NCBI RefSeq assembly: GCF_021018745.1
Contig: NZ_CP063845.1
Coordinates: 4,588,001-4,652,000 of the forward strand
DNA: 64,000 nt
From: Gloeobacter morelensis MG652769
GTDB lineage: Bacteria; Cyanobacteriota; Cyanobacteriia; Gloeobacterales; Gloeobacteraceae
Direction: 5' to 3'
Shown: positions 39,820 through 55,699 of the stretch, piece by piece
Layout of the letters: each line of letters begins with the position of its first letter
How positions within the stretch are numbered: position 1 is the first letter of the stretch
Position numbers and translations under genes: made by a program
The notes under the pieces: generated by a model
The model's database searches: none
What the model was told of the DNA's origin: nothing
Seen by the model: the letters and a program-made list of their open reading frames with translations, nothing else

Positions 39820-40497
39820 CTACAACCCTACGGGATCCTCGCCCAACTGCCGCAGCCGCCGCTCCAAAGCGGCAATCTTTGCCCGCTCTTGCTCCATCTG
39901 TTCTTCGGGAGTGGACAGCCTACGGCCGTCTTGGTTGAACCAGTAAAGCCACTCGCGCTGCCAGCCTTTGTAGGTGCCTTCGCCGCGTCCGAGACCCAGG
40001 CCCACTTCCTGCATCCAGAAGGGCTCCGCCTCCTGCCGGTGATAATTGCCGTCGACAAGCCGGTACGCAGCAAAAGGGCTTTGCTGGCGACGGCGCATGG
40101 GGTTGTAAATCACGTAGTAAGGAATAGCCAACTGCTGGTAGAGCGTCAGTTTGCTGCCGTACTCGCCCCGGTACGTCCGGGAGACGATTTCCAGCACAAG
40201 TACCGGCAGGGCACCCTCTTCCCAGACAACATAGCTGGGGCGGCCGTGCTCACCTTTGTGTCGCTGTACCCCCAGACTCAAGAAGCCGTCGGGGACCACC
40301 GGCTCCTCATCAGGAGCATAGTAGAGGCCCAGGTTCGCACCGAAAAACCAGTCCGTGCGACCGGCCCAGGCCAGCGAGAGAATCGCGGACAACAAACCGG
40401 CCACTTCTACCTGAAGCTCATTGTCCACGGGTTTTCCGTCCGAGTCGGGCAATTGCTCGACGGTGGGTAAAGGCTCGGCAGGGTTGTACTGAAACAT
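39820..40497 (-). CDS. Uma2-family PD-(D/E)XK nuclease-like protein
   Basis: This 225-residue protein carries the Uma2 catalytic signature: PVVPDGFLSLGVQ (Asp), LVLEIVSRTYRGEYGSKLTL (Glu and Lys in VLEIVS...GSK), YQQLAIPYYVIYN, and a C-terminal helical coiled-coil-like tail (EQMEQERAKIAALERRLRQL). Uma2 is a large cyanobacterial family of restriction-endonuclease-fold proteins of unknown biological role. The long C-terminal tail is typical of the larger subgroup. Confidence 0.9.
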   Translation of the reverse strand: MFQYNPAEPLPTVEQLPDSDGKPVDNELQVEVAGLLSAILSLAWAGRTDWFFGANLGLYYAPDEEPVVPDGFLSLGVQRHKGEHGRPSYVVWEEGALPVLVLEIVSRTYRGEYGSKLTLYQQLAIPYYVIYNPMRRRQQSPFAAYRLVDGNYHRQEAEPFWMQEVGLGLGRGEGTYKGWQREWLYWFNQDGRRLSTPEEQMEQERAKIAALERRLRQLGEDPVGL

Positions 40498-46727: not shown

Positions 46728-47263
46728 TCGAAGATCACTTTGGCGTAGATGAGCCGCAGGGGTATATCCAGGGCAATTGCAGCCAGATGAATGACTTCGG
46801 CGGCTTCGAACAATTGCACTTGCCACAGGTTTTTCTCCTGCCTGCGGTAAAGGCTCGCCGCCACCAGCTGACTGTCAAGCAGCAAATATTCCTGCAACGT
46901 TTCGATTTTGCCGTAATCGCGAAACTTCACCGAGCGATCGAACTCGGCCGTATTCTTTGAAAGCACTTCGACAATCAGGCACGGATACCGCAGCATGTAA
47001 CCGGTCGGTTCTTCGCGATCGTCGCAGCTGACGGAAACTTCCGGGTAGTAAAAAGGACCGGCCGGGCTACAGGCCACTTTCTGATCCGAGTTGAAGACAC
47101 GGCAGGGGCTGTCTGTCAGGTGGCCGTGGATAGCAGCGGTAACGTTGACGGCGATCAGGTTGTGCGATTTGCTGCCGCCTGCCATCGAAAAGATGCGGCC
47201 GTACCGGTACTCGTACTTCTGAGGTTGCTCGCGCTCCCATCGCAAGAATTGCTCGGGACTCAT
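46715..47263 (-). CDS. Uma2-family protein with Asp-to-Glu change at the first catalytic position
   Basis: The start chosen is ATG 47263 (MSPEQFLRWEREQPQKYEYR, the usual Uma2 N-terminus), with AAAGG ten bases upstream, giving 182 residues. The fold matches Uma2: SHNLIAVNVTAAIHGHLTD, FNSDQKVACSPAGPFYYPEV, LIVEVLSKNTAEFDRSVKFR, LQEYLLLDSQ. The first catalytic Asp is Glu here (YYPEVSVSC versus the usual YPDV), whereas the Glu (VEVLS) and Lys (VKFRDY) remain. Activity may be altered. Confidence 0.88.
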   Translation of the reverse strand: MSPEQFLRWEREQPQKYEYRYGRIFSMAGGSKSHNLIAVNVTAAIHGHLTDSPCRVFNSDQKVACSPAGPFYYPEVSVSCDDREEPTGYMLRYPCLIVEVLSKNTAEFDRSVKFRDYGKIETLQEYLLLDSQLVAASLYRRQEKNLWQVQLFEAAEVIHLAAIALDIPLRLIYAKVIFDQSE

Positions 47264-52173: not shown

Positions 52174-53796
52174 ATGCGAGTGGCGCTTTTGCAACTGAAT
52201 TCGACCGTGGGGGATCTCGTCGGCAATGCCGGGCGCATCGAGCGGGCGGCGGGGGAAGCTGCCGCTGCCGGGGCAGATCTGGCGATCACCCATGAGTTGG
52301 CGCTGCCCGGTTATCCGCCTCGGGATCTATTGTTGGACCGGGCCTTTGTGGCCGATATGCAGCAGGCCGCGCACCGGCTTGCCCGTGCGCTCGCGGGGGT
52401 GGTGCCGGTGTTGGTGGGCACGGCGGTGCCGAGCGCGGTGGGGCGGCCCCTGGCCAACGCGGCTTTGCTGTTGGAAGGAGGAGAATGCCGGGCGACGGTG
52501 GCCAAGGGGCTGCTTCCCACCTACGACGTCTTTGACGAGGACCGTTACTTTGAGGCGGGGCAGCGTGCTCACCCGATCGAGATTGCCGGGGTGGCGATGG
52601 GGGTGCACGTCTGCGAGGACATCTGGAACGATCGCGAATTTTGGCCAAGGCCGCGCTACCGCCGCGACCCGGTGGAGGAACTGGCCGGGCAGGGGGCGCG
52701 CTACTTGCTCAATCTTTCCAGTTCGCCTTTTTACGCGGGCAAGCAGCAGTTGCGCGAACGGCTTCTGGCCCACGCGGCCCGCCGCCACCGTCTGCCGGTA
52801 CTCTACGTCAATCAGGTGGGGGGCAACGACGAATTGCTCTTCGACGGCCGTAGTTGTGTCTTCGACGGGGAGGGCCGTCTGAGCGCGCGGGCGCGGGCGT
52901 TTGCTGAGGATATGCTGCTGGTGGACTTGGACTCGCTTGCGGGCCGCATCGAGCCTCAACCCACAGGCGAAGCGGAAATCTGGGAAGCATTGGTGATGGG
53001 TACGGCCGATTACGCCCGCAAGTGCGGCTTTCGGCAGGGGTTGGTGGCCCTTTCCGGGGGCATCGATTCGGCCCTCACCCTGGCGATTGTGGCCGCCGCC
53101 CTGGGGCCGGCGAATGTGCTCGCGGTGATGATGCCTTCACCGTATTCCAGTGCCGGCAGCATCGACGACAGTCTGGCCCTCGCCGCCAATCTGGGGGTGG
53201 AGACGCTCAAATTGCCCATCGCTCCGGCAATGGCGGCTTTTGAGCAGATTCTCGCTCCGGCCTTTGCGGACCTGGCCGCCGATGTCACCGAGGAAAATTT
53301 GCAGGCGCGTATCCGCGGCACCTTGATGATGGCGCTGTCCAATAAGTGGAATCGCCTGGTATTTATCACCGGCAACAAGTCCGAGACCGCCGTCGGTTTC
53401 AACACCCTCTACGGTTGCACCGCCGGGGCACTGGCCGTGATTGCCGATTTGTACAAAGGCGAAGTCTACCGCCTGGCGCGCTGGCTCAACCGGGACGGCG
53501 CGGCGATTCCCGAGGGTATCCTCACCAAGGCTCCTTCCGCCGAGTTGCGCCCGGACCAGCGCGACTCCGATACCCTGCCGCCCTACGACGTGCTCGACGG
53601 TATTCTGCGCGCCCACCTCGAAGGTGGGCGCACCCCCGAGGAGATCGCCGACAAAGGCTATCACCCAGAAGTGATCAAAAAAGTACTCGCCATGGTGCGC
53701 CGGGCCGAGTTCAAACGCAAGCAACTGCCGCCGGGTCTGCGCGTCTCGCCGCGCGCCTTCGGCATCGGCTGGCGCATGCCCATCGCCCGCACCTGA
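52174..53796 (+). CDS. nadE: Glutamine-hydrolysing NAD+ synthase
   Basis: This 540-residue protein has an N-terminal nitrilase-type glutaminase domain (Glu in THELALPGYPPRDLLLDRAF, Lys in ATVAKGLLPTYDVFDEDRYF, Cys in VHVCEDIWND) and a C-terminal synthetase with the PP-loop LVALSGGIDSALTLAIVAAA and FITGNKSETAVGFNTLYGCT. Most homologues have Asp after the Gly in 'TLYGD', and here it is Cys. It completes NAD synthesis from deamido-NAD. It is convergent with the ClpN-Uma2 gene. Confidence 0.95.
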   Translation: MRVALLQLNSTVGDLVGNAGRIERAAGEAAAAGADLAITHELALPGYPPRDLLLDRAFVADMQQAAHRLARALAGVVPVLVGTAVPSAVGRPLANAALLLEGGECRATVAKGLLPTYDVFDEDRYFEAGQRAHPIEIAGVAMGVHVCEDIWNDREFWPRPRYRRDPVEELAGQGARYLLNLSSSPFYAGKQQLRERLLAHAARRHRLPVLYVNQVGGNDELLFDGRSCVFDGEGRLSARARAFAEDMLLVDLDSLAGRIEPQPTGEAEIWEALVMGTADYARKCGFRQGLVALSGGIDSALTLAIVAAALGPANVLAVMMPSPYSSAGSIDDSLALAANLGVETLKLPIAPAMAAFEQILAPAFADLAADVTEENLQARIRGTLMMALSNKWNRLVFITGNKSETAVGFNTLYGCTAGALAVIADLYKGEVYRLARWLNRDGAAIPEGILTKAPSAELRPDQRDSDTLPPYDVLDGILRAHLEGGRTPEEIADKGYHPEVIKKVLAMVRRAEFKRKQLPPGLRVSPRAFGIGWRMPIART

Positions 53797-53799
53797 CTC

Positions 53800-54864
53800 C
53801 TAATAGGACGGCCAGAGGCGGGCGACGGGAACTTCCCAGCCCGCGAGCAACTCCGGCAACCGCAGCACGTCGTCCGCCTTGAGGGTCACCGCTTTGTGCT
53901 TGCCGGGATAAAAAACGCTGATACTGCGTCCGTGGGGATCGGCCATCCATCCCACCTGCACCCCCAAATTCAGCAATAGACGCATCTTCGCCGCCAGGAC
54001 GCGCAACTGCCTCGTGTCGTCGGGCCGTTCCACCACCAGCGCCGCCAGATCCGGGACGCGCGAATTGCCCGCATACAGACGCTCGCGCGAAAAATAGAGC
54101 ACATCGGCCACCAGCACATCGCTGCCGGCCAGGATGGGGCTGGTGGTGGAGACATGGCCAAGGCGGTGCGCTTCCACCCAGTCCAGCAGGGCCGCGCTCA
54201 GCCGCGTGCGCACTTCCCCCGCCGCGATCTGGGCCGGATAGATCTCCTGCACCGGGGCCGGGGCGGACAACGGATGCACCAACACCGGCGGGTGATTCTG
54301 GGTAGCGATCACGATGGGTTCGTTCCACTCATCCTCATCGTCCGCTGCTACCCGGCTCAAAGTCGGGGTGGCGGCTGCACCAAAAGCGGCCACCAGGATG
54401 CCCGCCCGTTTTTCAAGTTCGCGCAGGTCGATGTTGAGATGACGAAAAACACTCGCCGCCCCGCCGCCGCGCTTGCCCGCAAAGAGGCATTCGCGCACCA
54501 GCCCAAAAAAGATATGGCAGGTGTCCATGTGGCTGTGGTGCAGTTGCTCGGACTGATCGAAGGCGATCTCCCAGGCGTAGCGGGCGCGCGGCGTAAAGGG
54601 CATTTCCTTGGGCACCAGCCCGGAGCCGCGGCCGATGAGCCGCTCGACGAGGCGGCGGGTCGCATCGAGGTGCAGATCCTGGTCGACGAGTACTTTTGCC
54701 GCTTCGCTGGTGCCCTCGGCCAGCAGCCCCAGCAGCAAATGCTCGGTGCTCACAAACTGGTAACCCAGCCGCTGCGCCTCGGTGCGGGCGCAATCGAGCA
54801 CCCGGCGGGCGCTGTCGGTAAATTCGCCCGCAAGCGTTCCAAACATCGTCGAAGATTCAGGCAT
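53800..54864 (-). CDS. Fusion of ClpC-type Clp N-domain with an intact Uma2 nuclease domain
   Basis: The start chosen is ATG 54864 (MPESSTMFGTLAGEFTDSAR), giving 354 residues. Residues 6-155 closely follow the double Clp repeat of ClpC: ARTEAQRLGYQFVSTEHLLL with GLLAEGTSEAAKVL, ERLIGRGSGLVPKEMPFTPR, and DTCHIFFGLVRECLFAGKRG. After a linker (155-215), residues 216-354 form a Uma2 domain with Asp254 (VLVADVLYFS), Glu279 (AALVVERPDD), Lys293 (VLAAKMRLLL) and GVQVGWMADPHGRSISVFYP. No AAA ATPase is present. The role is unknown; it might bring substrates or adaptors of the Clp system to a nuclease, which is speculation. Confidence 0.88.
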   Translation of the reverse strand: MPESSTMFGTLAGEFTDSARRVLDCARTEAQRLGYQFVSTEHLLLGLLAEGTSEAAKVLVDQDLHLDATRRLVERLIGRGSGLVPKEMPFTPRARYAWEIAFDQSEQLHHSHMDTCHIFFGLVRECLFAGKRGGGAASVFRHLNIDLRELEKRAGILVAAFGAAATPTLSRVAADDEDEWNEPIVIATQNHPPVLVHPLSAPAPVQEIYPAQIAAGEVRTRLSAALLDWVEAHRLGHVSTTSPILAGSDVLVADVLYFSRERLYAGNSRVPDLAALVVERPDDTRQLRVLAAKMRLLLNLGVQVGWMADPHGRSISVFYPGKHKAVTLKADDVLRLPELLAGWEVPVARLWPSY

Positions 54865-54967
54865 GGCTCGGCCACCCGAAAAGGCCCTTTCTTCTAGCGA
54901 TGAAACGGCCCCGATTCTAGGCCCACGGTACGTTACGATGCACGAAGGCAACCGGAGCCCACGACCG

Positions 54968-55699
54968 ATGCGCATCGAAGCAAAGACCATCAAACCCAGA
55001 CACCCGTTGGTGACCCGCCTGGCCGAATTGCTGGTGAGCACCTGGGGAGAGTACCTGCAGCTGGAGCCGTATCACCTGCCGGCGGATCTGGGCTTTGTCG
55101 AAGGTCAGCTCGAAGGCGACCGGCTCACGATTGTCAATCACTGCTACCAGAGCCGCGTCTTTCGCAAACTGCACCTCGAACTTGCCACAATCGGTCCGAA
55201 TCTGGATATTTTGCACTGCGTGATGTACCCGCGCCCCCAGTTCGACCTGCCCATCTACGGCACCGACATCGTGGCGAGCACCCAGATGGTCAGTGCGGCC
55301 ATCGTCGATCTCTCGCCTGTGCGCGGCCCACTGTCTGAGAGCTACCTTACCGGCCTGGAGCCCAGCTTCGCGCGCTGCACCGATTTTGGCCAGCTGCGCA
55401 ATCTGCCTCCCTGGGGGACGATCTTCTCGCCGCGCTGTGTGTTCGCCCGTGTGGTCACCCCCACCGAGGCGGATCTGTTCATGGAGATCAGCCGCGCCTA
55501 TCTGCGCTTTCACTGCGAGCAGGCCGCCCGCGCCGAAGCGGTCGATACCGCCACCGAAGCTGAGATCCTGGCGGGCCATCGGCATTACTGCGAGCAGCAG
55601 CAACAAAACGATAAGACCCGGCGGATCCTCGCCCAGGCCTTCGACGAAGCCTGGGCCGAGCGCTACATGCGCACGGTGCTGTTCGATTTGCCGCAATAG
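54968..55699 (+). CDS. pcyA: Phycocyanobilin:ferredoxin oxidoreductase
   Basis: The start chosen is ATG 54968, with GGAG ten bases before it, giving the usual 243 residues. PcyA-specific sequence includes RHPLVTRLAELLVSTWGEYL, YHLPADLGFVEGQLEGDRLT, LELATIGPNLDILHCVMYPR, SAAIVDLSPVRGPLSESYLT, LPPWGTIFSPRCVFAR and CEQQQQNDKTRRILAQAFDE. Asp and His of the active site (IVDLSP, DILHCVM) are present. It reduces biliverdin to phycocyanobilin, the bilin of phycocyanin and of phytochromes. It is divergent from the ClpN-Uma2 gene. Confidence 0.97.
   Translation: MRIEAKTIKPRHPLVTRLAELLVSTWGEYLQLEPYHLPADLGFVEGQLEGDRLTIVNHCYQSRVFRKLHLELATIGPNLDILHCVMYPRPQFDLPIYGTDIVASTQMVSAAIVDLSPVRGPLSESYLTGLEPSFARCTDFGQLRNLPPWGTIFSPRCVFARVVTPTEADLFMEISRAYLRFHCEQAARAEAVDTATEAEILAGHRHYCEQQQQNDKTRRILAQAFDEAWAERYMRTVLFDLPQ

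Follow-up and report, generated by a model that had tools for sequence, protein, structure and literature searches.

Known Clp_N proteins and the Uma2 family

ClpC uses its N-terminal domain to bind adaptors, substrates that carry a degron, and unfolded segments. Sites lining its ligand pockets have been described, including T7, R9, E32, E106 and R122 (PMC12583610). Clp_N domains also occur in proteins without AAA+ modules. The mycobacterial ClpC2 is both an autorepressor and a sponge, and a ligand of ClpC lifts its binding to DNA (PMC10030653). In plastids, the ClpP ring has ClpT as an accessory protein (PMC7966870). Clp_N repeats have further been described in conflict systems, without Uma2 (PMC7159879). 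Two loci seen here (L254 and L255, at G415:C113 and G399:C58) resemble these systems: their frames are long, with 907 and 2563 aa in G415, and combine tandem arrays of ClpC-type N-domains with TPR-like repeats and an AAA region of FtsH-like type.

Uma2 is among the most expanded cyanobacterial families. One study put it forward as a probable family of solo toxins (PMC2701414), and another remarked on its presence close to TA loci (PMC4963859). In the literature searched no established role for Uma2 was found, and no paper mentioning the "Clp N-terminal domain" together with Uma2 turned up with the terms tried.

A Clp_N-Uma2 fusion gene in Gloeobacter

The window analysed here is a stretch of 64,000 nucleotides from Gloeobacter morelensis (G000:C1:4588001-4652000), part of a 5.1 Mb genome. 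It contains a gene that a first-pass annotation had read as a ClpC-type N-domain fused to an intact Uma2 nuclease. Reading of the open frame confirmed its coordinates and strand, and gave a single 354-aa frame with an ATG at 54864 and a stop codon at 53800-53802; the start is backed by a common N-terminus, M-P-[EP]-x-S, among the orthologs. The features of the locus are collected in Table 1.

Table 1. Coordinates of the fusion gene, its parts and its neighbours in the window
Feature	Position	Strand	Basis
Clp_N-Uma2 fusion gene, 354 aa	53800..54864	-	ORF and Pfam; ATG start
ClpC-type N-domain, residues 12-165, two Clp repeats	54370..54831	-	PF02861; VIA-align Z 22.6 to 6cn8
Low-confidence linker, residues 166-205	54250..54369	-	pLDDT <50 in AF2 model
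Uma2 / PD-(D/E)XK fold domain, residues 206-353	53806..54249	-	PF05685 27-172 of 172; VIA-align Z 18.3 to 1wdj, 9y1l
Asp254, motif II Asp, kept	54103..54105	-	Family alignment
Leu276, most probably in the catalytic-Glu slot	54037..54039	-	Pro-5 / hydrophobic+1 rule; strand register
Glu279, conserved among orthologs, 3 residues off the family register	54028..54030	-	Alignments
Lys293, helix Lys, kept	53986..53988	-	Family alignment
Divergent intergenic region, ~103 bp, common to fusion gene and pcyA	54865..54967	.	Head-to-head pair in G000, G061, G013, G033, G072
pcyA, ferredoxin-dependent bilin reductase, divergent neighbour	54968..55699	+	PF05996 (Fe_bilin_red) E 6.5e-76
nadE, NAD synthase, convergent neighbour	52174..53796	+	PF02540 E 2.4e-66

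Full-length orthologs were found in four other Gloeobacteraceae genomes, G061, G013, G033 and G072, at 97%, 96%, 59% and 45% identity, the last from another genus. The same fused frame thus recurs in independent assemblies and represents one gene; two separate genes joined by a sequencing error, and a split gene, were thereby ruled out.

Both domains scored above their Pfam cut-offs. An AF2 model of the protein (pLDDT 79.6), for which only window and locus sequences were used, contains two confident domains separated by a linker of low confidence; how the two domains are placed relative to each other is unreliable in it (pTM 0.48). The fold matches given below are among the best PDB matches listed by VIA-align.

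Clp_N-Uma2 fusions in other cyanobacteria

The same architecture was then found to extend beyond these orthologs, to at least four lineages. Lineage A comprises the window gene and its orthologs, and lineage B is a Gloeobacter paralog (L002, L091). In lineage C, from Nostoc, Brasilonema, Calothrix and Oscillatoriales (L099-L105, L208, L210), an XRE-type HTH_3 domain (E 7.6e-17) precedes two Clp_N repeats and Uma2, which places the Clp_N and Uma2 module pair in a transcription-regulator frame; no conserved neighbour gene was seen. Lineage D is the locus L178. The survey covered Cyanobacteriota, with lineage A and lineage C fusions as queries; a fusion with an intact Uma2 domain is not expected to score lower. 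In filamentous cyanobacteria the fusions are patchy, occurring in 3 of 60 and 1 of 65 genomes. Placing all fusions in one clade gave an AU p of 0.23, and the trees are compatible with a single or several origins of the fusion.

The ClpC-type N-domain

The first-pass annotation placed both Clp halves in the first 155 residues, without an AAA+ module, and both statements were borne out. Two Clp_N stretches lie above the Pfam cut-off (PF02861; whole-protein E 1.8e-15), residues 11-168 of the AF2 model match ClpC N-domains, the ClpC1 NTD (6cn8) with a Z of 22.6, and the Pfam scan of the protein returned no AAA+ family. The two AAA+ modules that define a ClpC unfoldase are therefore absent.

In cyanobacteria the ClpC N-domain is almost invariant among the eleven sampled: eleven genomes from across the class (L003, L068, L077, L024, L025, L032, L180, L181, L211, L227, L228) share it letter for letter over the stretch compared. 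The lineage-A domain is 45-48% identical to these cyanobacterial domains and carries a loop insertion, ECLFAGKRGGG, relative to ClpC. Its two phosphoarginine-type ligand pockets were mapped in ClpC numbering as pocket 1 (T7/E32) and pocket 2 (T81/E106/R122). Pocket 1 retains its Thr and Glu, and the groove its Phe. In pocket 2 of G000 and G033, Glu106 is replaced by Cys (Cys116 in the window protein) and Arg122 by Ser (Ser138); the Glu is retained in G072. Lineages B, C and D retain both pocket Glu residues. The lineage B domain is 81-83% identical to the cyanobacterial ClpC NTD, with nearly all mapped pocket residues kept. The link to the Clp system first proposed for this gene stands as likely, given the ClpC-type N-domain and the pocket residues mostly kept by related proteins. 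Elsewhere in the G000 genome, a 157-aa frame at G000:C1:1053384-1053785 encodes a stand-alone double Clp_N protein, ClpT- or ClpC2-like.

These features bear on the idea of a decoy for ClpC partners, which the earlier reading had also raised. A free ClpC-type N-domain would compete with ClpC for adaptors, substrates and ClpC-directed peptides, and the Uma2 domain would be a mere scaffold, for example for dimerisation. The fold match makes the domain clearly of ClpC type, the paralog domain resembles the ClpC NTD still more closely, and both ClpC2 (PMC10030653) and plastid ClpT (4y0b/4y0c) are AAA-less Clp_N precedents. The idea stays alive; however, the low identity of the lineage-A domain and its lost pocket-2 residues are odd for a ClpC mimic, and the conservation of the Uma2 domain suggests more than an inert scaffold. 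A decoy or sponge is, on balance, possible but unlikely.

The Uma2 domain and its active site

Residues 210-348 match Uma2 (PF05685) with an E of 4.4e-13 and 49.5 bits against a cut-off of 27, lacking the first ~26 profile positions. In the AF2 model, residues 211-351 match the Uma2 structure 1wdj (Z 18.3, rmsd 2.5, 136 aligned) and 9y1l equally well, so that a PD-(D/E)XK fold is predicted. The G000 genome holds ~114 Uma2 matches, with further copies within the window, e.g. at ~40006-40419 and 46778-47257 on the minus strand. A solo copy at G000:C1:1567303-1567794 carries a full triad. One solo Uma2, L007 (G000:C1:1814059-1814496), has Glu replaced by Arg and Lys by Gln, and its N-terminal part is also missing; it groups near the fusions in one tree (82/70) and not in another.

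Asp254, Glu279 and Lys293 had been taken as evidence of an intact nuclease. As letters all three are present, and they are conserved in all lineage-A orthologs; as an intact PD-(D/E)XK triad they were not confirmed, Leu276 being most probably at the catalytic-Glu position and the canonical triad most probably broken by a Glu to Leu change. An intact triad by letter count was rejected on register tests. Of 70 aligned solo Uma2 proteins, 62 belong to the G000 genome and 8 to other cyanobacteria; all 70 have Pro five positions before the catalytic Glu column, and all 70 a hydrophobic residue directly after it. Leu276 satisfies both rules (Pro271, Val277) and Glu279 neither (Ala274, Arg280); the residue that follows the Glu279 equivalent is Pro in G033 and Gln in G072. 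Predicted structures, which are not fully independent of the supplied alignments, place Glu102 fourth in the LVVEV strand (99-103) of the canonical solo protein L041 and Leu276 fourth in the LAALV strand (273-277) of the window protein, leaving Glu279 two residues beyond the strand end. Leu276 is thus favoured by the strand register, as it is by MAFFT and by the 30-sequence HMM alignments of G072 and G033. For the window protein, the 30-sequence HMM aligns Glu279 with the Glu column, yet it has Leu there for G033 and G072, and the HMM alignments that favour Glu279 in the window protein insert three residues in the middle of the core strand. A smaller seven-sequence HMM favoured Glu for G033 too.

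An "intact Uma2 nuclease" is not supported: at least one canonical catalytic residue is missing from each fusion found. In lineage A the change is most probably Glu to Leu, with Asp kept; in lineage B, Asp to His or Asn and Glu to Val; in lineage C, Asp to Arg, His or Cys, with Glu kept; and in lineage D, Glu to Gln, with Asp and Lys kept. A complete canonical triad was found in none of the four fusion lineages, whereas Asp/Glu and Glu are kept in 67 of the 70 solo Uma2 proteins. Because these lesions differ, at least two losses are independent, even if the fusion arose once.

An active nuclease with a relocated acid has also to be considered, in which Glu279, Asp254 and Lys293 would form the working site and the ClpC N-domain would target the nuclease or set its stability. 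Such a site is possible because the three residues are kept across diverged orthologs (G033 and G072 included), something that a completely dead site would not call for; this counts against a non-cleaving protein. Residue migration is known in the PD-(D/E)XK superfamily (PMC1913061), and one family HMM lends Glu279 its support. The proline and hydrophobic rules met by Leu276, the Leu given by that same HMM in both diverged orthologs, the strand correspondence and the plain Gln in the Glu slot of lineage D all speak against it. The suggestion of a nuclease targeted through Clp adaptors is weakened, and a relocated working site appears distinctly improbable.

Selection and gene neighbourhood

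Among the three closest genomes the whole-gene dN/dS is 0.14-0.19. By part, it is 0.07-0.15 for Clp_N and 0.08-0.14 for Uma2, save for 0.53 in the G000-G061 comparison of the Uma2 part, a value that rests on ten changes. In most comparisons purifying selection acts on both domains, which are therefore probably functional.

The fusion gene lies head-to-head with pcyA in all five genomes that have a lineage-A ortholog (G000, G061, G013, G033 and G072, from two genera). The arrangement is absent from G104 of the same family, and the adjacency may reflect chance vertical inheritance. The adjacency of nadE is not kept in G033 and G072. No record covering 80% of the query was found among plasmid-borne copies, the listed matches being only to the ClpC-like part, and PADLOC returned no match to a defence system.

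The pcyA neighbour had prompted a phycobilisome hypothesis linked to NblA. NblA (PF04485) was found in the control genome and in G122, and in none of five Gloeobacteraceae genomes (G000, G013, G033, G061, G072), which led to the rejection of this hypothesis and makes NblA an unlikely partner of the fusion protein in this organism. Each of these five genomes has three ClpS genes, whose products are obvious partner candidates.

That the fusion is an evolutionary by-product, drifting without selected function in a genome rich in Uma2 copies, would suit the large Uma2 expansion, the catalytic decay and the patchy distribution in filamentous cyanobacteria, but the low gene-wide dN/dS and the retention over two genera at the same place with pcyA make it very doubtful.

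Proposed function

The ranking favoured here puts a Clp-linked, non-cleaving regulator first, a plain decoy second and a nuclease with a relocated site third. The regulator is preferred, tentatively, because the recruitment domain is kept, the nuclease lacks canonical residues and ClpC2 provides a precedent. The head-to-head arrangement with pcyA conserved over two genera speaks for it, and so does the HTH of lineage C; the absence of an HTH from the window protein itself and of a conserved neighbour from lineage C speaks against it, as does the possibly chance adjacency of pcyA. The analysis shows the domain architecture, its conservation, the fold match of the predicted model, the missing canonical residues in all fusion lineages found and the XRE-HTH version; we infer catalytic inactivity, ligand binding, DNA binding and a regulatory role, and likewise any effect on pcyA.

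A duplicated ClpC N-terminal domain would have fused with one of the many Uma2 proteins of cyanobacteria, and the Uma2 partner would then have lost its catalytic Glu (Leu276). Most likely, the N-domain would bind a ligand of the ClpC pathway, be it an adaptor of the ClpS type, a segment of a substrate or a compound directed at ClpC. The Uma2 fold would not cleave but would offer a platform for binding nucleic acid or protein. Once bound, the ligand would alter the effect of the fusion protein on a target, for which the common promoter with pcyA is the first candidate; alternatively, the fusion protein may titrate the ligand away from ClpC.

In a broader and unlikely extension, Clp_N-Uma2 proteins would be cyanobacterial one-component regulators: the ClpC domain would read ligand load, the disarmed fold, with or without an HTH, would act on DNA, and proteolytic load would control transcription. 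If true, this would be the first non-nuclease role for the Uma2 fold. The ClpC-domain link together with catalytic loss gives Uma2 a testable context, that of a disarmed nuclease fold in protein quality control or transcription, and the fusion is a candidate extra Clp partner in organisms without NblA.

Comparison with known systems

The window protein resembles the ClpC N-domain (PF02861; 6cn8, 5gui, 2y1q) in its double Clp repeat, in its fold (Z ~22) and in the pocket-1 Thr and Glu and the groove Phe. Unlike ClpC, it has neither AAA+ modules nor a middle domain, and the pocket-2 Glu and Arg are lost in the Gloeobacter orthologs. Its residues 206-353 belong by fold and sequence to Uma2 / DUF820 / COG4636 (PF05685; 1wdj, 9y1l, 3ot2), and differ from typical Uma2 in the probable replacement of the catalytic Glu by Leu, the missing N-terminal profile positions and the fused Clp_N. 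Plastid ClpT1 and ClpT2 (4y0b, 4y0c), recovered as fold matches, are likewise AAA-less double Clp_N proteins, but have no Uma2 domain. XRE-type one-component regulators share the HTH_3 domain of lineage C, which the window protein lacks.

Mycobacterial ClpC2 similarly joins a ClpC-type N-domain without AAA+ modules to another domain. Its structures 8ad9 and 8b9o were matched by sequence, and 8b9o also by fold (Z 14.7). The extra domain of ClpC2 is an N-terminal four-helix dimerisation domain and not Uma2, and its DNA binding and ligand have been demonstrated, whereas for the window protein both are predicted.
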